DNA of 64,000 nucleotides from Hyphomonas sp. (GTDB lineage: Bacteria; Pseudomonadota; Alphaproteobacteria; Caulobacterales; Hyphomonadaceae), in the NCBI GenBank assembly GCA_013791775.1, contig VMTE01000023.1, forward strand, positions 1-64,000, read 5' to 3'. Positions 47,232-62,521 of this stretch are shown one piece after another; the stretch's first letter is position 1, and each line of letters opens with the position of its first letter. The position numbers were made by a program, and so were the translations under genes. Under the pieces are notes generated by a model, which searched no databases, was not told the origin of the DNA, and saw only the letters and a list, made by a program, of their open reading frames with translations.

Positions 47232-47828
47232 ATGACCCAGAAGCGCATCGCCACCATCACCCGGAAGACCAAGGAAACGGATATTTCGGTCACCGTCGAT
47301 CTCGACGGGACGGGAAAATCCGACATCGACACCGGGATCGGGTTTTTCGATCACATGCTCGACAGCCTGTCCCGGCATTCGGCCATCGACCTGACCGTGC
47401 GGTGCCAAGGCGATCTGCACATCGACATGCACCATTCGGTCGAGGATACCGGCATTGTCATCGGCCAGGCGATCCTGAAGGCGCTGGGCGATTTCGCCGG
47501 CATCACCCGCTTTGGCCACGCTTATATCCCGATGGACGAGACGCTGACCCGCGCCAGCCTGGACCTGTGCAAACGTCCCTACCTGGTCTGGAAGGTCGGC
47601 TTCTCGCGCAACAAGATCGGCGACATGGACACCGAACTCTTCAAGGAGTTCTTTCACGCCCTCGCCGGCAATGGCGGCATGTGCCTGCACGTGGAAAACC
47701 TCCACGGCGAGAACTGCCACCACATCGCCGAAAGCTGCTTCAAGGCCACCGCCCGCGCCCTCCGGGCCGCCATTGCGGTGGATCCGAAGCTCGGCGGCAA
47801 GCCGGCCTCGACCAAGGGCAGTCTCTGA
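47232..47828 (+). CDS. hisB: Imidazoleglycerol-phosphate dehydratase
   Basis: A 198-residue single-function dehydratase of histidine synthesis (no phosphatase fusion). Mn-binding motifs are complete: [34 protein letters not shown], and [20 protein letters not shown]. It is the first his gene in the window, divergent from the EAL-domain gene. In related genomes hisH follows at once; here four kilobases of other genes come first. Confidence 0.97.
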
Positions 47829-47834
47829 CGAACG

Positions 47835-48413
47835 CTAGATAAGCCGCGCGTCCACCACCACGTCGATCAGGGCGGGGTCGGCCGGCACCTGTCCGTCGAG
47901 CATCAGCATCGCCAGCCCGTGCACCAGCGCCCAGGCCCGCAGCCGGCGCGCCTCCTGCACCGGGGCCGGCACGCCGGCGCCGAACAGGCTGTCAATCGTA
48001 TTGACCAGCATCTGCATCGCCGCACCGCCGTCCCCGGCGCTCGGCGGCGGCACCGGCAGGGGACCGCGGCCCGGCGCCGCCATCATCAGCCGGAACAGCG
48101 ACGGATGCGCGAGGGCAAAGCGCACATAGGCCTGGCCCATGGCCGAGAAGGCAGCCAGCCCCGGCTCCGCCGAGGCCATGGCCGCCTTGAAGGCCGCGCC
48201 CAGGCGGGCATCGCCTTCAAGGCACATCGCGTCCAGCAGCGCCGCCTTGTCCGGAAAATGCCGGTACACGGCGGTCGCCGAGACACCTGCATTGCGCGCA
48301 ATCTCGCGCAGGCTCAGCGCGTCGGCCGGGCCCGTATCGATCAGCTTCAGTCCCTCTTCGATCAACGCCGCCCGCAGGTCGCCATGGTGATAGCGACTTT
48401 TCTCCGAACTCAT
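47835..48413 (-). CDS. TetR-family transcriptional regulator
   Basis: A 192-residue repressor-type protein. The HTH region is YHHGDLRAALIEEGLKLIDTGPADALSLREIARNAGVSATAVYRHFPDKAALLDAMC, standard for TetR. The C-terminal half (about residues 75-190) is the variable ligand domain, Ala-rich. Start MSSEKSRYHHG at 48413 is preferred because an upstream ATG (48440) would place candidate operator sequence inside the gene. It is divergent from a carotenoid oxygenase gene, its most likely target, and its end lies 6 bases from hisB. Confidence 0.9.
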   Translation of the reverse strand: MSSEKSRYHHGDLRAALIEEGLKLIDTGPADALSLREIARNAGVSATAVYRHFPDKAALLDAMCLEGDARLGAAFKAAMASAEPGLAAFSAMGQAYVRFALAHPSLFRLMMAAPGRGPLPVPPPSAGDGGAAMQMLVNTIDSLFGAGVPAPVQEARRLRAWALVHGLAMLMLDGQVPADPALIDVVVDARLI

Positions 48414-48457
48414 GTTGACAGTGTTATCATTTCCAGTCATGTTACCAGCGTAAACAT
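48412..48457. promoter_or_regulatory. Candidate TetR operator pair
   Basis: Two similar palindromes in tandem: ATGTT-N9-ATCAT (48412-48430) and ATGTT-N9-AACAT (48439-48457). They lie between the TetR gene and the carotenoid oxygenase. TTGACA (48415-48420) could be a -35 box for the + strand gene, with a weak -10 17 bases downstream, so binding would block both directions. This is inferred from position and symmetry. Confidence 0.45.
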
Positions 48458-48505
48458 TATGTCCGCCGCCCGCAACCGCCAACCCAACGTGTCAGGAGCT
48501 ACAAA

Positions 48506-49942
48506 ATGTCCAGTCCCGTCGAAGCCGCAATCCGGGGGGTCGTCACCAAAGGCCTGATGAGTGTCGCGAACTTCAATCGCGCTCACCGCAAGGCCAAGGG
48601 GCCGAACCCTTTCCTCACCGGCGTTCACACGCCGCTCGGGTCTGAAACCACCCTCACCGATTTGAAAGTCACCGGCGCCATCCCGGCAGCGCTGAACGGT
48701 CTCTACCTGCGCAATGGTCCGAACCCCTTCACGCCGCCCAATCCTGCCATCCACCACTGGTTCGTCGGCGACGGCATGTTGCACGGCGTCCGTCTGGAAG
48801 GCGGCAAGGCGCTCTGGTACCGCAACCGCTGGGTCCGCTCGGCGGCCATCAGCAAGGCGCTCGGCGAGACACCGATCCCCGGCCCGGCCAGCCGCTTTGA
48901 AAGCCCGAACACGAATGTTGTCGCCATCGCCGGCAAGATCTGGGCGCTGGTTGAAGCGGGCGGCCTGCCGGTCGAGGTCTCCGACACGCTGGAATCGCGT
49001 ACGCGCAGCGACTTCGACGGCCTTCTCGCCATGGGCTACACGGCCCACCCGCATGAAGACCCGCTCACCGGCGAAACCCATGCCATCTGTTACAATTCGC
49101 TGGCGCCCACCACGATCTGGCACACCGTCATCGACACCCAGGGCAAGGTCCGCCGCCACGAGCCGATCGCCGTCCAGGACGGCCCCTCCATCCATGACTG
49201 CATGATCACGAAGAACCATGTCATCGTGATGGACCTGCCGGTTACCTTCTCGATGCCCGCCCTGATCTCCGGCGAAACCTTCCCGTATCGCTGGAACCCG
49301 AAACACGCCGCCCGTATCGGCCTCCTCCCCCGCGAGGGCAAAGGCAGTGACATCATCTGGTGCGACGTCGAGCCCTGCTACATCTTCCACCCGGCCAACG
49401 CCTATGAAACAGAAGACGGCACGGTCATCATGGACGCCTGCGTCCACTCGGCCGTGTTCGCGGATGGCCAGATGGGTCCGAACGCGCCGGTCACCACCTT
49501 CGAAAGCCTCGAGATCGACCCCGCCGCCCGCAGGGTGACCCGCACGGTCATCGATGCCGCGCCGCAGGAATTTCCGCGTCCGGACGAACGGCGCACCGGC
49601 CAGCCCTACCGCTACGCCTACACCGTCGCCCTGCCCGAGAACGGGGACCCCGGCTTCGTCGGCGACCCCCGGCTCTACAAGCACGACCTGGGATCACGCA
49701 CCCGCGAGACCCGCAATTTCGGCGAGGGCAAGATGACAGGCGAATTCGTCTTCGTTCCCGCGCATGCCGGCGCCGAGGAGGATGAGGGCTGGCTGATCGG
49801 CTTTGTCATCGACACGGCGGCCGACACGACCGACCTCGTGATCCTCAACGCGCACGACTTCACCGGCCCGGCGGTTGCCACCATCACCATCCCGCACCGC
49901 ATCCCTCCGGGTTTCCACGGCAACTGGATCCCGCTGGCCTAG
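48506..49942 (+). CDS. Carotenoid oxygenase family protein
   Basis: A 478-residue non-haem iron dioxygenase of the RPE65/CCD family. The early block ALNGLYLRNGPNPFTPP is typical, and the four iron-binding His residues are visible in YTAHPHED, SIHDCMIT, YIFHPANAYE and PPGFHGNWIPLA. It cleaves carotenoids, stilbenes or related alkenes; the substrate is not predictable. It is controlled in all likelihood by the divergent TetR gene. The pair lies between hisB and hisH. Confidence 0.93.
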   Translation: MSSPVEAAIRGVVTKGLMSVANFNRAHRKAKGPNPFLTGVHTPLGSETTLTDLKVTGAIPAALNGLYLRNGPNPFTPPNPAIHHWFVGDGMLHGVRLEGGKALWYRNRWVRSAAISKALGETPIPGPASRFESPNTNVVAIAGKIWALVEAGGLPVEVSDTLESRTRSDFDGLLAMGYTAHPHEDPLTGETHAICYNSLAPTTIWHTVIDTQGKVRRHEPIAVQDGPSIHDCMITKNHVIVMDLPVTFSMPALISGETFPYRWNPKHAARIGLLPREGKGSDIIWCDVEPCYIFHPANAYETEDGTVIMDACVHSAVFADGQMGPNAPVTTFESLEIDPAARRVTRTVIDAAPQEFPRPDERRTGQPYRYAYTVALPENGDPGFVGDPRLYKHDLGSRTRETRNFGEGKMTGEFVFVPAHAGAEEDEGWLIGFVIDTAADTTDLVILNAHDFTGPAVATITIPHRIPPGFHGNWIPLA

Positions 49943-50000: not shown

Positions 50001-51770
50001 TCAACCGCCGCAGAGCAGGCCGAGCGGCGTCATGCCGCTCGCCGGCTCGATTTCCTGCCGGATCTGTTCGAGGATCAATGGCAGCGCCACGCCAAAGCCG
50101 CTGCGCGGACGGCCTGGATCTGCGCCCGGCACCGAGCCGATATGCACCGCCACCACTTGCCCGCCCGTCAGGTCGAACACCGGCGCGCCAAGCGCGCCCA
50201 GCGTGGTCGAGTGCGCGTAATAGATCCTGTACGGATCAGCGGCGTCTTCCAGCTTCGACACGAACAGCGTCACCGACTGCCCGCCGGCCGCCGCGTCGCC
50301 GATGCCGTAGAGCGCCAGCGGCCGCCCCGGCAGGTTCGCCGGGCTCTCGTCGCCGTCAAGGATCGTGCAGGCGATATCCTGCGTCACCAGCGGACGCGCA
50401 CCGAAGGGCGGCGCGGCGTCCAGCCGCCAGAGCTCGAACGGATCGATCCCGCCCATGTGCGCCGGTGTGGACCAGACCGGCGCGGCGCCCTTGATCCAGA
50501 TCCCGCCGTCGAGCGCCGGAAACAACGCGCGCAGACCCGTGGGCGGTCCCGCCTGCCCGGTATCGACAATCCGCTGCACGAGCGGCGGCGCGTCCACCGG
50601 CACCTCGCCTGCCGCAAACCCGTCCGGCGGATCCGGCTCCCCGGGCGCTTCGGCAAGGTTCACAATCGCGCCGCCGCCGGACCCGCCGTGGCCCCGCATC
50701 GCCGGCACCAGGAGGTAGGCGCCCGCATCGCCCCCGCGCAGCACGCTGCCGTCGATCAGTACGCCGGACTGGACCGCCGCCACCACGCCCGCTGCATCGA
50801 CGCGCTCGACCTTCGCGATGGCGCCGGAAAACTTCGCCGCCAGCGGGAACCAGCCGCCCCTGATCGTCACATAGTCCGCGCCGGACGGCGGCGCGCGCAG
50901 TGAAATGTCCGCCTGCAGACGAAGGTTCGCCTGCTCGACTTCGCGCGCCCTGACTTCCAGCTCCTGGAAGGCCCAGACGGCGCGGGCGCGGGCCTCTTCG
51001 GCGTCGTCGCGCGCCCTGGAGGCCTTGTACGCCTGCCACGCCGCCCCTGCCGCCAGCAGGCTCATCCCCAACGCCACCAGCATCGAGACAACCACCGCCC
51101 CGCGCCGCTTTGCCCTTGCGGCCATCTCGGCCGCTGCGCGCGCCGCCAGGCTCGCGCCGATATAATCCGCATGCAGATCGGTCAGCGCCGGCGCAGTGTG
51201 CGGCCGGGCCGCCGCCCAGTCCCGCGCCGCATCCAGCTCCTCCCCGCGCAGCAACGCCGCCTCCGGCCGCCCGCGGGCCTCCCACCGCCGCGCAAGGCCG
51301 CCGATCCGCGAATGCTCCCGGATCCAGGCGGCGTCGACCCGCAGCGCGCCGGCCAGTTCTGACAACCCCTTCGCAAAGCTCTTGCCGCCATCGAAGAACA
51401 CGAAGTTCAGCGCCGAGAGCTCCTTCGGCATCTGCGCCGCGTCGACGGGCGACCACACCACCGGCAAGAGCCGCTTCGACAGGCGCAGCGTCTCGGTCAC
51501 TTCCCAATGGCATTGCGGCGAGGACACCGAATGCGGCGAGATCACATAGACGACCGTATCGGCCTCGCCGATCAGCCCGCCGAGCCGCGCCTCCCACGCC
51601 TCGCCGGGCGCGATATCCTCCCGGTCGATATACGCCTCGAAGCCGCACGCCTGCAGCCCCGCCACAAGGTCGTCCGCAAACGCCGCATCCTTGCGCGAAT
51701 AGGACAGGAACACCTTGGCGGCTTCCGGCGCGGAGGCCGGGCGGCCTGGCTGAGACGCTCTGGTCCCCAT
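50001..51770 (-). CDS. TIR-domain protein with membrane helix and degenerate trypsin-like domain
   Basis: A 589-residue protein. The N-terminal TIR domain (residues about 18-145) includes KVFLSYSRKD, YIDREDIAPGEAW, VVYVISPHSVSSPQCHWEV, with Glu90 at the position of the catalytic Glu of NAD-cleaving TIRs. One membrane helix lies at about 223-247, followed by a coiled coil (250-290). The C-terminal part (295-575) has a trypsin-like pattern: SGVLIDG early, and GALGAPVFDLTGGQVVAVHIGS late. Where active proteases have GxSGGP, this has GALGAP (Ser replaced by Leu527), and no H-C block is visible. I infer a dead protease fold used as a sensor or ligand domain. It sits alone between the carotenoid oxygenase and hisH. 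Confidence 0.8.
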   Translation of the reverse strand: MGTRASQPGRPASAPEAAKVFLSYSRKDAAFADDLVAGLQACGFEAYIDREDIAPGEAWEARLGGLIGEADTVVYVISPHSVSSPQCHWEVTETLRLSKRLLPVVWSPVDAAQMPKELSALNFVFFDGGKSFAKGLSELAGALRVDAAWIREHSRIGGLARRWEARGRPEAALLRGEELDAARDWAAARPHTAPALTDLHADYIGASLAARAAAEMAARAKRRGAVVVSMLVALGMSLLAAGAAWQAYKASRARDDAEEARARAVWAFQELEVRAREVEQANLRLQADISLRAPPSGADYVTIRGGWFPLAAKFSGAIAKVERVDAAGVVAAVQSGVLIDGSVLRGGDAGAYLLVPAMRGHGGSGGGAIVNLAEAPGEPDPPDGFAAGEVPVDAPPLVQRIVDTGQAGPPTGLRALFPALDGGIWIKGAAPVWSTPAHMGGIDPFELWRLDAAPPFGARPLVTQDIACTILDGDESPANLPGRPLALYGIGDAAAGGQSVTLFVSKLEDAADPYRIYYAHSTTLGALGAPVFDLTGGQVVAVHIGSVPGADPGRPRSGFGVALPLILEQIRQEIEPASGMTPLGLLCGG

Positions 51771-51860: not shown

Positions 51861-52493
51861 ATGTCCCGCGTCGCGCTCATCGATTATGGCTCCGGCAACC
51901 TGCACTCCTGCGGCCGCGCCCTCGTTGCCGCAGCCGGCGGCGCCCACGACATCCAGATCACCGCCCGCCCGGAAGATCTCGCAGCCGCCGACCGCATCGT
52001 CCTGCCGGGCGTCGGCCACTTCGCAGACTGCGCCGGCGCCCTGCGCGCCATCCCCGGCCTGATCGACGCCCTCGAAGACGCCGTCCTGACGCGCGCGCGG
52101 CCTTTCCTCGGCATCTGCGTCGGCCTGCAGCTGATGGCCGACCTTGGCCTCGAGGACGGCGAGACGCCCGGCCTCGGCTGGATCCACGGCCTGGTCGAAA
52201 GCCTTGAGCCCGCCCCCGGCCTGCCGGTGCCGCATGTCGGCTGGAACGAGCTCGCCCTGCCCGCGCCCCACCCCGTCCTCGCCGGTCTCGGGCCGAGCCC
52301 CCACGCCTACTTCACCCACTCCTACGTCTTCCGCCCCGAAGACGAGGCCGGCGTCGCCGCCTGGTGCGACTACGGCGCCCCCTTCGCCGCCGCCGTCACC
52401 CGGGACAACCTCTTCGGCACCCAGTTCCACCCGGAAAAAAGCCAGAAGGTCGGCCTGACGATCTTGTCGAACTTTCTGAATTGGTCACCCTGA
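51861..52493 (+). CDS. hisH: Imidazole glycerol phosphate synthase, glutaminase subunit HisH
   Basis: A 210-residue class I glutamine amidotransferase that supplies ammonia to His[22 protein letters not shown] starts the protein, the nucleophile Cys is in [11 protein letters not shown], and the His-Glu pair is in TQFHPEKSQ. The ATG at 51861 is the clear start. A hairpin repeat and 60 bases separate it from hisA. Confidence 0.97.
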
Positions 52494-53332: not shown

Positions 53333-54757
53333 ATGGCAATCCCATCACTTCGTTCCGTCCGCGAACTTATCGAGAACCCACAAGAGTCGCTATCTGTAGA
53401 GCTGAAGGATTGGATTGATCCGAGTTTGCCAGAAGATGCTGCAAAACTGGTGAAAGAGTGTTTTGCGCTTAGAAACTACAACGGCGGTGACCTGATTGTT
53501 GGATTCGACGACAAGACTCTTTTACAATCCAAAAGGAATATCCCATCCGACGTTTCGGCAACCTTTCACGCCGATCTCGTGCAACAAGTTCTCTCAAAGT
53601 ACGCATCCGAGCCGTTCGGAGTGAGTGTCGAGTTTGGGGAGCTCAATGGCATCTCACACCCCGTAATTAGAATTCCATCAGGAGTTCGAGTGCCCGTGTG
53701 CGTCAAGTCGGACCTTTTTGATTCGAAGCAGAAAAAACTGCTCGCAGTCGATGACGTGTATTTCCGCACGTTGAATGCGAACAATCGCCCTAGTTCCGCA
53801 AAGATAAAGTACCGTGATTGGCCAGCCCTTCTCGACGTGTGTTTCGACAACCGAGAGGCTGATATCGGTCGTTTTCTGAGACGTCACCTGGGGTCTACGT
53901 CTGCGCAAAACTTGCTGAACTCACTAAAAGATCTCACTGCGGATCAAATAGAAACCGATGGCTCGGCGTTTCTCCGAAGTTCAGTTTCAGATCGGCTGAG
54001 CGCACTACTGCTTGCTGGCAGGCTTCGATTTGCAGCTATCGCGCTCAAACGCAAATCAGCATTCCCCGCATTCGGCACATATGAAGCAGCTTTGATAATT
54101 GAGGGTGAGCATCCCCATCACAAAGCAAACTATGCGTTTCTTGACATTTTGTCGTCTGCGAACCCTCGCCTGACCGGTTGGCCCATTTGGCTAGACAGTA
54201 GGACGTTCAGCGATGAGTCAACTCGACCATTTGTGCATTATGGCGTTTGGGAGGCGTTCATCGACAGCGTCTCGGCGCAAGCGAACGGCCATATTGACTT
54301 CTATCGATATGACCCTTCCGGACAATTTTATTTGCTCCGAGCGCTGCAAGATGACGTTGCCGCAAGCGAGCGCCGTCCCAAGCCTCTGACACAGTTTGAA
54401 GCAATTGTTGCAGTCTACCGCGTCACGGAGACTCTTGCCGTTGGACGCAACTTTGCGAAGGCGCTTGGATATGACACCGAAACTGCGACTCTGTGCTACA
54501 AGTTGAAGTGGACTAAGCTTGGCGGCCGCACGCTTTCAACATGGGCGAACCCGGAGAGGTCGTTGTCGTATGGCAGAAAAGCTTATCAAGACGAGTGCGT
54601 AACAGAGGCGTTCATTCCGGCTAATACTCCAGACTCGGCTTTGCCGCAGTTTGTGAAGTCAGCTGTCGACCCACTCTTCGAGATATTCGAAGGATTTGAA
54701 ATGGCGATGCCGGTAATTGAGGAAATAGTACGCAGAGTTCTGGAGCGCCGGTGGTGA
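53333..54757 (+). CDS. AT-rich AlbA_2/Schlafen-like domain protein
   Basis: A 474-residue protein with an N-terminal AlbA_2 (Schlafen-like) domain: E18-x4-E23-L-K25 opening, LVKECFALRNYNGGDLIVGFDDK (the N-x-GG core, N50-G51-G52), and later DVYFRTLNANNRPSSAK. Such domains bind nucleic acid or act as nuclease-like modules in viruses, toxins and defence proteins. The remaining 310 residues match nothing I recognise. Base composition differs sharply from neighbours: the line 53701-53760 has 28 G+C of 60, against 47 of 60 at 52801-52860 in hisA. It lies between hisA and hisF. Acquisition by transfer is likely. Confidence 0.75.
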   Translation: MAIPSLRSVRELIENPQESLSVELKDWIDPSLPEDAAKLVKECFALRNYNGGDLIVGFDDKTLLQSKRNIPSDVSATFHADLVQQVLSKYASEPFGVSVEFGELNGISHPVIRIPSGVRVPVCVKSDLFDSKQKKLLAVDDVYFRTLNANNRPSSAKIKYRDWPALLDVCFDNREADIGRFLRRHLGSTSAQNLLNSLKDLTADQIETDGSAFLRSSVSDRLSALLLAGRLRFAAIALKRKSAFPAFGTYEAALIIEGEHPHHKANYAFLDILSSANPRLTGWPIWLDSRTFSDESTRPFVHYGVWEAFIDSVSAQANGHIDFYRYDPSGQFYLLRALQDDVAASERRPKPLTQFEAIVAVYRVTETLAVGRNFAKALGYDTETATLCYKLKWTKLGGRTLSTWANPERSLSYGRKAYQDECVTEAFIPANTPDSALPQFVKSAVDPLFEIFEGFEMAMPVIEEIVRRVLERRW

Positions 54758-59333: not shown

Positions 59334-59432
59334 CCTCACCTTCCATCACTTTGCGATGGCCTGCTCAGGGCGATTGCTGTGCAATCGCTTTTCCTTCGCA
59401 GCCCATCCCGGAGGGAGAAGGGCAAGAAGCGT
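59334..59432. repeat. Intergenic repeat element after hisE, with terminator-like hairpin
   Basis: Between hisE and cobT is a patchwork repeat. CCCCTCACCTTCC on the left and GGGAGAAGGGCAAGAAG on the right match the ends of the shorter element at 52504-52548. In the middle, GCGATTGC-TGT-GCAATCGC followed by TTTT (59370-59392) could terminate hisE. The rest of the gap (59207-59333) shows nothing recognisable. Confidence 0.55.
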
Positions 59433-61411
59433 CACTTCTTTCCCGGTGGTTTCACCGCTTGCAGCGTGGTGGTTTTGACGTCGCGGCCGAGGCCGACTTT
59501 CTTGCCGTAGCTGGGGGCGCCGGCGGTGGCGCCGCGGACGGTGCGTTCCGTGAGCGGAGGGATGGCCATGGCGGCGGGGTTGGGGGGATGCTCGTCGAAC
59601 AGGGAGGCGAGCTGTTCAGTCATCGCGCCGCCGAGCTGTTCGGCGTCGACGATGGTGACGGCACGCTTGTAATAACGCGTCACGTCATGGCCGATGCCGA
59701 TGGCGATGAGTTCGACCGGTGAGTGGTTCTCGATCTCGTCGATCACCTGGCGGAGATGGCGCTCGAGGTAATTGCCGATGTTCACGTTGAGCGTGGAATC
59801 ATCGACCGGCGCGCCGTCCGAGATGACCATCAGGATCTTGCGCTGCTCCGGACGGGCCAGCATCCGGTCGTGCGCCCAGAGTAGGGCTTCGCCGTCGATG
59901 TTCTCTTTCAGCAGCCCTTCGCGCATCATCAGGCCGAGATTGCGGCGGGCGCGGCGCCAGGGCATGTCGGCGCCCTTGTAGATGATGTGGCGGATGTCGT
60001 TGAGGCGGCCGGGGCTCGCCGGTTTGCCAGCCTTGACCCAGTCCTCGCGGCTCATGCCGCCTTTCCAGGCCTTGGTGGTGAAGCCGAGGATTTCGGTTTT
60101 CACCGCGCAGCGCTCCAGCGTGCGGGCGAGAATGTCCGCACACAGAGCGGCGACCATGATCGGGCGGCCGCGCATCGAGCCGGAATTGTCGAGCAGCAGG
60201 GTGACGATGGTGTCGCGGAACCTGGTATCGTCTTCCTGCTTGAAGGAGAGCGGCGCGGTGGGGTCGGTGATGACGCGGGTGAGGCGGGCAGTGTCGAGCA
60301 CGCCTTCTTCGAGATCGAAGCTCCAGGACCGGTTCTGCTGCGCCATCAGGCGGCGCTGCAGCTTGTTGGCGAGCTTGGCGACGGCGCCCTGCAAGCCTTG
60401 CAGCTGGTGATCGAGATAGGCGCGCAGGCGGGTCAGTTCCTCGGCGTCGCAGAGGTCCGGCGCATTGGCGGTCTCGTCATGCGCGCGAGTGAAGACGTTA
60501 TAGACAAAGCGGTCGCGCTCGTCGCCCGGCTGGTAGTTCGGGCGGAGCGGCTTGGAGCCTTCGTCTTCCTCGTCCGCCGTGTCGTCAGCGTCGAAATCGG
60601 CGTCCTGATCGACCGAGACATTGGCTTCCTCGCCGTCGATGTCTTCGGTCTCGCCGGCCTCGGTCTGTTCGGCGGAGGCGCCCATCTGTTCTTCCGAGGA
60701 CGTATCGTCCTCTCCGGTCTGGGTCTCGCTGTCTTCCTGCGGCTGGGCATCTTCCTCTTCGCCGGTCTCGACATCGTCGCCGGGCACATCGGAGGCCGTC
60801 AGGTCACGGATGATCGAGCGGATGGCCTTCGAGAACTTCGCCTGGTCGTGCAGCTGCTCGATCAGGCCGTCGATGGCCTTGCCGGCGCGGGCCTCGACCT
60901 TTTCGCGCCAGACATCGGCGATGCGGGCGGCGCTTTCGGGCAGCGGGCGGCCGGTGAGGCGTTCGCGCAGCAGGAATTCGAGCGCGGGAGCGAGGACCGC
61001 CTCGGGGTCTTCAGACCCATTGCCGAAATTGGTGGACTTGCAGCGGAAATCGAGCGCGGCGTCGAGATTGCCGGCGGTGCCGGTCATCGCATTGGCGCCG
61101 AGGCTTTCGATGCGCGCGGTCTCGGCGCTTTCATGGACGCGGCGGGCGAGATCGCCTTGCGGGCGGTGGGCGAGGTGGGCGGCGGGATCGTGGTGCGCGC
61201 GGCGCAGCGCCAGCGCGTCGGCTTCGCCCCGGATGCGCGCGGCGATTTCCGGCGCAAGCTCGATGGGCGGCGGGCGCAGCACGAGCCGGTCGCCGTGATC
61301 GCCGGCATCGTTGCCGAAGCCGACCTCAAGCTCGCGCTCCGCGCTCATCGCCTTGGTCGTGGCGGCGAGGGCGGCCTTGAACAGATCCTGGGGAGTGGTG
61401 TCCTTTGCCAT
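59432..61411 (-). CDS. cobT: Cobaltochelatase CobT-type subunit
   Basis: A 659-residue protein. The middle (about residues 200-300) is a very acidic Asp/Glu-rich linker. The C-terminal von Willebrand A domain has the MIDAS motif [13 protein letters not shown], with [13 protein letters not shown] and [10 protein letters not shown] later. The acidic linker and VWA domain are typical of CobT, which partners CobS in a AAA+/VWA chaperone that drives CobN in late cobalt insertion. CobN is not in this window. It is 24 bases downstream of cobS. Confidence 0.93.
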
Positions 61412-61435
61412 GCGCCGCGCGCGTCGGGCCCTGCC

Positions 61436-62419
61436 CTACGCCACCTTCACCATCAGCGCGCTCTCGGGGAGTTCGACGCCGAAGCAGCGCTGGTACATCT
61501 CGGCGACGAGCGGGCGTTCCAGCTCGTCGCACTTGTTGAGGAAGGTCATGCGGAAGGCGTGGCCGAGGTCGCCGAAGATGGCGAAGTTCTCGGCCCAGGT
61601 GATGACGGTGCGCGGGCTCATCACGGTGGACAGGTCGCCGGCCATGAAGGCGTTGCGGGTGAGGTCGGCGAGGGTGACCATCTTGGCGAGGGTCGCGTCA
61701 TCGACGCCGGTGGCTTTCGACTTGACGATTTCGACCTCGGCGTCGTGGGCGAGATAGTTCAGCGTGGTGACGATCGACCAGCGGTCCATCTGGCCCTGGT
61801 TGAGCTGCTGGGTGCCGTGGTAGAGGCCGGTCGTGTCGCCGAGGCCGACCGTGTTGGTGGTCGAGAAAAGGCGGAAATAGGGGTTCGGCGAAATCACGCG
61901 GTTCTGGTCCAGCAGGGTCAGCTTGCCGGAGCTTTCGAGGACACGCTGGATGACGAACATCACGTCCGGGCGGCCGGCGTCGTATTCGTCGAACACGATC
62001 GCGACGGGGCGCTGCAGGGCCCAGGGGAGAATGCCTTCGCGGAATTCGGTGATCTGCTTGCCGTCCTTCAGGACGATGGCGTCCTTGCCGACCATGTCGA
62101 TGCGGCTGACGTGGGAGTCGAGGTTGACGCGGATCATCGGCCAGTTGAGGCGGGCGGCGACCTGCTCGATGTGGGTCGATTTGCCGGTGCCGTGATAGCC
62201 TTGCACCATGACGCGGCGGTTGAACTCGAAACCGGCGAGGATGGCGAGCGTGGTCTGGGGGTCGAACCGGTAGGAGGGGTCCAGCTCCGGCACGTATTCG
62301 GTGCGCGTCTTGAAGCCGTGCACGACCATGGCCGTGTCGAGGCCGAACAGCTTCTTGAGATTGAGCTTTTCAGTCGGCTTGAGGCCTTCGAGCGTGTCGG
62401 TGGACGTCATTGTAGTCAT
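61436..62419 (-). CDS. cobS: Cobaltochelatase CobS-type AAA+ ATPase
   Basis: A 327-residue AAA+ ATPase. The Walker A is [16 protein letters not shown] and Walker B is [54 protein letters not shown] contains sensor 1 and the arginine-finger region. The N-terminal [18 protein letters not shown] matches CobS. The start at 62419 (MTTMTSTD) is used; MTSTD at 62410 is possible. It is followed by cobT, and together they form a MoxR/VWA-like pair. Confidence 0.95.
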
Positions 62420-62521
62420 GGGGAAGCGGGGCTCGTCACGGGAGAGTGTGGGACAGACTTGGGGTTCTAGCACGGGATGGGCCCGCGACTAGTGCGACGC
62501 AAGGGAAAGTCGCAGGCCCGA

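Follow-up and report, generated by a model that had tools for sequence, protein, structure and literature searches.

A TIR protein of Hyphomonas with a catalytically dead trypsin-like domain, a candidate one-protein membrane receptor

Introduction

What might a TIR protein do with a protease domain that can no longer cut, and why would the two be joined through a membrane helix? This question is raised by a gene in a 64,000-nucleotide stretch of DNA from the marine bacterium Hyphomonas sp. (GenBank assembly GCA_013791775.1, contig VMTE01000023.1, positions 1 to 64,000), here called the window. A preliminary description, made from the sequence alone, had proposed that the gene encodes a membrane sensor whose former protease domain recognises a ligand and triggers NAD depletion. 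We followed this proposal through the architecture of the protein, its orthologues, its relatives with other C-termini and its genomic surroundings.

Results

Domain layout of the protein

The gene is a 589-codon open reading frame on the minus strand, and the plus-strand reading of the same interval contains stops. A chance open frame was ruled out by conservation among orthologues together with a dN/dS of 0.26 over the whole gene, measured against the nearest orthologue. The gene and its parts are as follows, with residues numbered along the encoded protein:

50001–51770, minus strand: whole gene, 589 amino acids, in the order TIR domain, helical linker, membrane helix, long helix, trypsin-like pseudo-protease
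51354–51713, minus strand: TIR domain (TIR_2), residues 20–139, Pfam E 2.8e-23
51501–51503, minus strand: E90, glutamate at the TIR catalytic position, codon checked
51105–51335, minus strand: helical linker, about residues 146–222, common to TIR proteins with other C-termini
51042–51098, minus strand: hydrophobic helix, residues 225–243, a probable membrane span by hydropathy and charge bias
50895–51041, minus strand: long helix or coiled coil, residues 244–292
50046–50873, minus strand: trypsin/HtrA-like pseudo-protease domain, about residues 300–575, by AlphaFold2, Foldseek and profile-profile comparison
50694–50696, minus strand: R359 at the catalytic His column, codon checked
50538–50693, minus strand: variable loop downstream of the lost His, about residues 360–411
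50439–50441, minus strand: P444 at the catalytic Asp column, codon checked
50367–50369, minus strand: C468, one of two cysteines after the hydrophobic helix, codon checked
50190–50192, minus strand: L527 at the nucleophile Ser column, codon checked
50010–50012, minus strand: C587, the other cysteine after the hydrophobic helix, with a homologous Cys in 12 of 12 orthologues

The membrane helix and coiled coil that had been described as joining the two domains were found again, as the hydrophobic helix at 225–243 and a long helix predicted by AlphaFold2 at residues 240–292, the latter in part at low confidence. A Pfam scan of the linker gave no match, and the full-length AlphaFold2 model had a pTM of 0.44, so that the arrangement of domains within it was not used.

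A trypsin-like domain without its catalytic triad

At the level of Pfam, the two domain calls of the preliminary description fared differently: TIR_2 is significant, while Trypsin_2 is a weak match under its cut-off (E 0.0041, residues 501–542). Profile-profile comparison with a mixed set of 13 trypsin-like domains returned 99.2% probability (E 1.2e-19), against 0.5% or less for each of five column-shuffled controls and one TIR control. An AlphaFold2 model of the C-terminal part, built from nine sequences (mean pLDDT 66.7, pTM 0.73), matched 343 PDB chains in Foldseek at E ≤ 0.001; DegP, DegS and Rv3671c head the list, and the best 50 of the 343 comprise DegP, DegS, DegQ, Deg1, HtrA3, Rv3671c, FAM111A and the S1C domain of RsgI9. 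A sequence-profile search of the PDB gave weak matches only, to FAM111A (E 0.0012) and V8-type proteases (E 0.0044). The structural and profile comparisons bear out the trypsin-like fold proposed for the C-terminus. DegS, DegP and their HtrA-type relatives are envelope-stress proteases, and their place among the closest folds lends something to an unlikely alternative, in which the protein is an envelope-stress or developmental regulator whose ligand would be the cell's own misfolded or cleaved envelope protein and whose TIR output would be signalling, not suicide; we return to it below with the neighbouring genes.

To examine the triad, we aligned the C-terminal domains of 12 orthologues with 13 trypsin-like relatives, which represent 13 of the 17 other loci from an order-wide scan. 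His, Asp and Ser stand at the catalytic columns in 0 of 12 orthologues at each column, compared with 13 of 13 relatives, whose frames were picked by a GxSG-type motif, so that their Ser is partly a product of selection and not independent evidence. With the orthologues in row order, the residues found are R R I - P F F F E D F F at the His column, P P P P P V I P P P A A at the Asp column and L F M G T F F F G G T T at the Ser column. The leucine reported earlier in place of the nucleophile is confirmed as L527, and the window protein has in addition lost its His (R359) and Asp (P444), which goes beyond the original claim. Inspection of the three catalytic columns, each with three flanking columns on either side, revealed no replacement triad, and an active serine protease was rejected on the absence of the triad at every column in all 12 proteins. 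Because all three positions are replaced in 12 of 12 orthologues, the catalytic loss is an old one. The stretch that follows the lost His measures 32–132 amino acids in the 12 orthologues, compared with 16–29 in the 13 relatives that carry the triad, and in our models this loop (about residues 360–411) mostly has a pLDDT under 50. The assignment as a catalytically dead trypsin-like domain thus holds, and more strongly than was first stated.

Distribution, history and selection

Full-length proteins of the TIR–helix–dead-trypsin architecture number 12 in 105 Hyphomonadaceae genomes, the window protein included, and one more genome (G067) holds only pieces of a broken copy, beside hisH. The other 11 proteins are 74, 48, 46, 44, 42, 42, 44, 43, 42, 23 and 23% identical to the window protein; a contig scan returned eight records, among them Hyphomonas sp. 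and Henriciella sp., of which the nearest is Hyphomonas sp. RI_45 at 74% identity. When 398 genomes of the order were scanned with a profile of the C-terminal domain, the strong matches, at E 2e-69 or better, came from the same 12 and no others; the weaker ones, between E 1.8e-6 and 1e-3, mostly belong to larger proteins with an ordinary trypsin-like domain. No further orthologue was found in these 398 genomes or in 385 drawn from the class. Carriage of the whole protein by phages or plasmids was considered and set aside: there was no match among phage records at E ≤ 1e-5, and six plasmid records match only within residues 8–204, none covering 80% of the protein. In a tree of N-terminal halves, a branch with support 93/92 (not starred) sets the 12 orthologues apart from 23 other proteins with a TIR-linker half, so that a single fusion event would be the simplest history.

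Selection was estimated by the Nei–Gojobori method from one gene pair, the window gene and its nearest orthologue, which makes the following figures rough. The dN/dS was 0.16 for the TIR domain, 0.19 for the linker, 0.47 for the membrane and long-helix part, and 0.27 and 0.21 for two parts of the pseudo-protease core; the value for the variable loop, 0.29, is a poor one (dS 1.5), and the controls hisA and hisB gave 0.14 and 0.07. Rough and from one pair as they are, the values of 0.21–0.27 say that the dead domain is kept by selection, unlike a sequence in neutral decay. That the gene is decaying and has no present function is, accordingly, a very improbable reading. The loss of all catalytic residues would suit it, as would G067, which has pieces only at the same site, but a dN/dS of 0.16–0.27 in both domains, measured against one orthologue, and the conservation of the structural residues and both cysteines in 12 of 12 orthologues across several genera speak against it.

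The TIR domain and its glutamate

The N-terminal domain belongs to the TIR superfamily, scoring 83.1 bits with TIR_2 against a cut-off of 28. In a scan of its own genome the TIR match has an E-value of 4.2e-24, the genome contains 11 TIR_2 matches, and TIR proteins are common in this Hyphomonas. E90 lies where the earlier reading had placed it, at what we take to be the catalytic position of NAD-cleaving TIRs, and its conservation, which had been proposed as a check, is complete: the Glu is present in 12 of 12 orthologues, and the aligned residue (E92 in that alignment) is Glu in all 23 other TIR-linker proteins.

A profile of 18 TIR relatives matches TLR, MyD88, SARM1 and bacterial TIR structures, and the best-matching solved TIRs by profile are the TLR and MyD88 domains. 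The TIR domains of TLR and MyD88 are signalling adaptors, which could favour a reading in which the TIR domain is a non-enzymatic assembly module and the protein scaffolds or signals by contact only. The same reading could draw on two fast-evolving orthologues (L020 and L023) with degenerate TIR boxes, in which the SYS box and the BB-loop motif are gone and the Glu is retained. We nevertheless regard it as quite unlikely, for the Glu is invariant among orthologues and relatives alike, and SARM1 and bacterial TIR structures match the profile too.

A probable membrane span with a charge bias

The hydrophobic helix at residues 225–243 has a mean hydropathy of 2.23, with five Lys or Arg in the 15 residues before it and three in the 15 after. 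All 12 orthologues carry a 19-residue hydrophobic stretch after the linker (mean hydropathy 1.82–2.28), and in all 12 the Lys and Arg of the 15 preceding residues (3–7) outnumber those of the 15 that follow (1–3). The asymmetry is modest, and in one case amounts to 3 versus 2. Exactly two cysteines lie after the helix in every orthologue, at homologous positions (468 and 587 in the window protein), for which we propose a disulfide. Because of the charge bias and the two cysteines conserved in 12 of 12 proteins, the sequences suggest a topology with the N-terminus inside and the C-terminus outside, in which the C-terminal domain would be a periplasmic, disulfide-bonded sensor.

Relatives with other C-termini

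Proteins with the same N-terminal half were sampled as 23 TIR-linker proteins in 20 chosen regions from the family search. The direction of the charge bias is the same in 21 of the 23, and 20 have a hydropathy stretch above 1.6 (that of L117 being doubtful). WD40 (PF00400) is the commonest C-terminal domain, present in 14 of 23. One protein (L126:2306-5248) ends in glycosyl hydrolase 108 and PG_binding_3, and another (L115:13688-15370, in G012) in a caspase domain (Peptidase_C14, E 1.7e-10) and is without a clear span or charge bias. Inspection by eye found one C-terminal pattern, around 'HIS' and 'RYYYD', in four members (L112, L113, L114 and L123), and the C-termini of L112 and L123, scanned on their own, had no Pfam match. 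The remaining C-termini received no assignment. From their predicted domains, these proteins make up a modular family in which the same TIR-linker half precedes differing C-termini such as WD40, caspase and muramidase. Three other TIR-linker genes lie within about 15 kb of the caspase gene.

An Agrobacterium plasmid protein (L139:2959-5892) has the order TIR–helix–WD40–M23 peptidase, with the helix at 235; together with L126 it makes two TIR-linker-type proteins with cell-wall domains after the helix. The metal-binding His positions of its M23 domain look replaced by eye; the protein would then be a second example of a sensor position occupied by a dead enzyme.

The WD40 members and their neighbours bear on another alternative. 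WD40 domains would not be expected in the periplasm. In the genome of the window itself, a TIR–helix–WD40 gene lies 93 nt upstream, on the same strand, of a gene for a 1413-aa trypsin/TPR-S protein (G000:C51; L135:8805-16856), whose triad motifs are intact and in which no signal peptide was seen by eye. The trypsin/TPR-S protein also has a weak, below-cut-off peptidoglycan-binding match, and TIR–helix–WD40 and trypsin/TPR-S genes are paired in G060 and G072 as well, at other spacing.

These pairs raise the prospect, to which we assign a low probability, that the dead trypsin domain acts in the cytoplasm as a decoy or regulator, binding whatever an active trypsin/TPR-S protease encoded elsewhere has as its substrate or partner, and so gating activation of the TIR domain. 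Trypsin/TPR-S domains are among the closest relatives found of the dead domain, and TPR-S matches (E ≤ 0.001, only 13 of the 23 passing the family cut-off) occur in 7 of 12 orthologue-bearing genomes and in 16 of the remaining 93 (p 0.004 by Fisher's test, without correction for kinship), both of which agree with a cytoplasmic partner. On the other hand, 5 of the 12 orthologue-bearing genomes have no TPR-S match, though one of them, G087, has a similar trypsin protein (L065), and the cysteine pair and charge bias point to the periplasm.

A shared site in the his operon

The genes on either side of the TIR gene belong to, or interrupt, a histidine operon:

47232–47828, plus strand: hisB (IGPD, E 7.6e-66)
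48506–49942, plus strand: RPE65-type carotenoid oxygenase (E 1.1e-105), one immediate neighbour
51861–52493, plus strand: hisH (GATase, E 1.2e-19), the divergent neighbour, with a likely ATG at 51861

The operon is split, with TetR, RPE65-type and TIR genes lying between hisB and hisH. hisH itself has matches in 41 of 42 genomes of the genus, and among the best 30 of 44 hisH loci the gap between hisB and hisH is variable: the two genes are adjacent in some species, and elsewhere the gap holds an RPE65-type gene, a CorC/HlyC-like frame (by eye) or other genes. A second species (G061) has both the TetR and RPE65-type genes (47835–49942 in the window) between hisB and hisH and the TIR gene at the same site, and in a third (G067) the pieces of the broken copy stand beside hisH. 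Two other genera (g8 and g10) have, between them, four loci at which the TIR gene adjoins a cytochrome P450 gene; other orthologues have as neighbours an MFS transporter, a YdcZ-type exporter, an amidase and a PQQ-type dehydrogenase. Because the his site is common to further species and the P450 adjacency recurs in four loci, the gene looks more like an old resident than a newcomer to a defence island, and a recent insertion of that kind was rejected on the same two observations. The preliminary description placed the gene by itself in an interrupted his operon and likened this to what is often the case for acquired defence genes; the disruption stands, but the site is a variable one, shared with two other species and broken in one of them.

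No known defence system or defence island was seen among the neighbours scanned with Pfam, beside either the window gene or its orthologues. The nine neighbouring genes include neither a ThsA-type partner nor a MoxR ATPase with a vWA protein, so that we assign the gene neither to Thoeris nor to the MoxR-vWA ternary systems; the AAA and vWA genes at 59432–62473 lie some 8–11 kb off, and Pfam names them CobS and CobT. Elsewhere, a DNA methylase with a RAMA domain (L073:3902-4984) adjoins one orthologue and could be part of a restriction system or a housekeeping enzyme.

The his operon of the window contains a second insertion, between hisA and hisF, which encodes a SLFN/AlbA_2-like protein (53333–54757; below cut-off, E 0.0067). 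It is present in 1 of 31 genomes searched, that of the window, and was dropped as a candidate partner of the TIR gene for this reason.

The surroundings also bear on the envelope-stress or developmental regulator introduced above. Ordinary neighbours, namely his genes in Hyphomonas and cytochrome P450 in the four loci of two genera, would sit well with such a role; the patchy presence of the protein (12 of 105 genomes) and the species with a broken copy are more easily squared with a conflict-type gene that cells can do without than with a core stress regulator.

Discussion

We read the dead trypsin-like domain best as a sensor, and the protein, with about even weight for and against, as a one-protein membrane receptor in which a pseudo-protease ectodomain would bind a ligand and cluster a cytoplasmic TIR NADase. 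In such a receptor the C-terminal domain would sit in the periplasm, its fold held by one disulfide. No longer cutting, it would bind its ligand through the old substrate groove or through the variable loop, which may have replaced the active-site loop; an extended peptide, an envelope fragment and an invader protein are candidate ligands. By way of the long helix and the one membrane helix, binding would rearrange or cluster the receptor, upon which the cytoplasmic TIR domains would assemble and hydrolyse NAD+, and this hydrolysis would starve or kill the cell or else yield a nucleotide signal, for an anti-phage or some other purpose.

Several observations weigh against the receptor account: the TIR boxes are degenerate in 2 of 12 orthologues, the charge asymmetry is small, relatives carry WD40 domains, and the caspase relative has neither span nor bias. 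The trypsin/TPR-S gene next to the TIR–helix–WD40 relative would suit a cytoplasmic partner, and the TIR gene of the window has neither a defence island among the neighbours scanned nor a match among phage records.

If the receptor account is true, a single bacterial gene encodes a receptor whose sensing takes place outside the cytoplasmic membrane, by means of a dead enzyme, and whose signal is given by a TIR domain in the cytoplasm; to our knowledge, characterised bacterial TIR systems sense inside the cell. It would also provide a small, testable case of the evolution of an enzyme into a receptor, since the genome still has a triad-intact trypsin/TPR-S relative, whose gene stands 93 nt from one with the same kind of TIR-linker-helix half.

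Comparison with known systems

The components of this protein have precedents. TIR effectors on the one hand, and inactive trypsin domains in conflict systems on the other, have each been described (PMC7159879, PMC8195603), and active trypsin-like proteases are known from phage defence and from a CARD-NLR-like system of Caulobacter (PMC12799240, PMC13236601). Among the matches listed in a search of the open-access literature, nothing described a TIR domain joined via a membrane helix to an inactive trypsin domain, and the term TPR-S was absent among the matches listed for TPR-S with TIR and trypsin. With the NAD-cleaving TIRs of SARM1 and Thoeris type the protein has in common the TIR fold and the catalytic-position Glu, which is present in all members found. 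PADLOC matches fall within residues 3–166, and those to the ThsB and ThcB4 models cover the TIR domain only. It differs from these systems in having a hydrophobic helix and a pseudo-protease in the same chain and no ThsA-like neighbour among those seen, and its own NADase activity is putative.

Some of the closest relatives of the dead domain come from the trypsin/TPR-S proteins (PF13365 with PF20308), one of which adjoins a TIR–helix–WD40 relative; unlike the window protein, these have intact triad motifs and TPR-S and no TIR domain. For inactive trypsin domains in bacterial conflict, the MoxR-vWA ternary systems offer a precedent (PMC7159879); compared with the systems as described there, our protein has no vWA domain and no conserved neighbour gene, and its TIR domain is attached via a hydrophobic helix.

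Another parallel is the anti-sigma factor RsgI9 of Clostridium thermocellum, for which PMC12203970 describes an N-terminal intracellular domain, one membrane helix and a protease-like S1C domain (7sjy) that is said to bind cellulose or polysaccharide, within a family that has divergent C-terminal sensors. In both proteins, on that description, a protease-like domain would be used for binding on a single-span protein with its N-terminus inside. The output of RsgI9 is control of a sigma factor, with no TIR domain, and the likeness is one of fold, confined to the protease-like domain.

Toll-like and IL-1 receptors resemble the proposed receptor in layout only, as single-span receptors with an ectodomain and a cytoplasmic TIR domain (PMC7075850), and we claim no membership for it among them. 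In the Hyphomonas protein, which is bacterial, the TIR domain is N-terminal, so that the order is reversed, and the putative ectodomain has neither LRR nor Ig domains. As a tentative generalisation that we hold to be a little on the doubtful side, the Hyphomonadaceae, and probably other bacteria too, may possess 'upside-down Toll-like receptors', in which exchangeable periplasmic sensors, one of them a trypsin domain killed in ancient times that would bind rather than cut, would be combined with a constant cytoplasmic TIR domain, a linker and one membrane helix.
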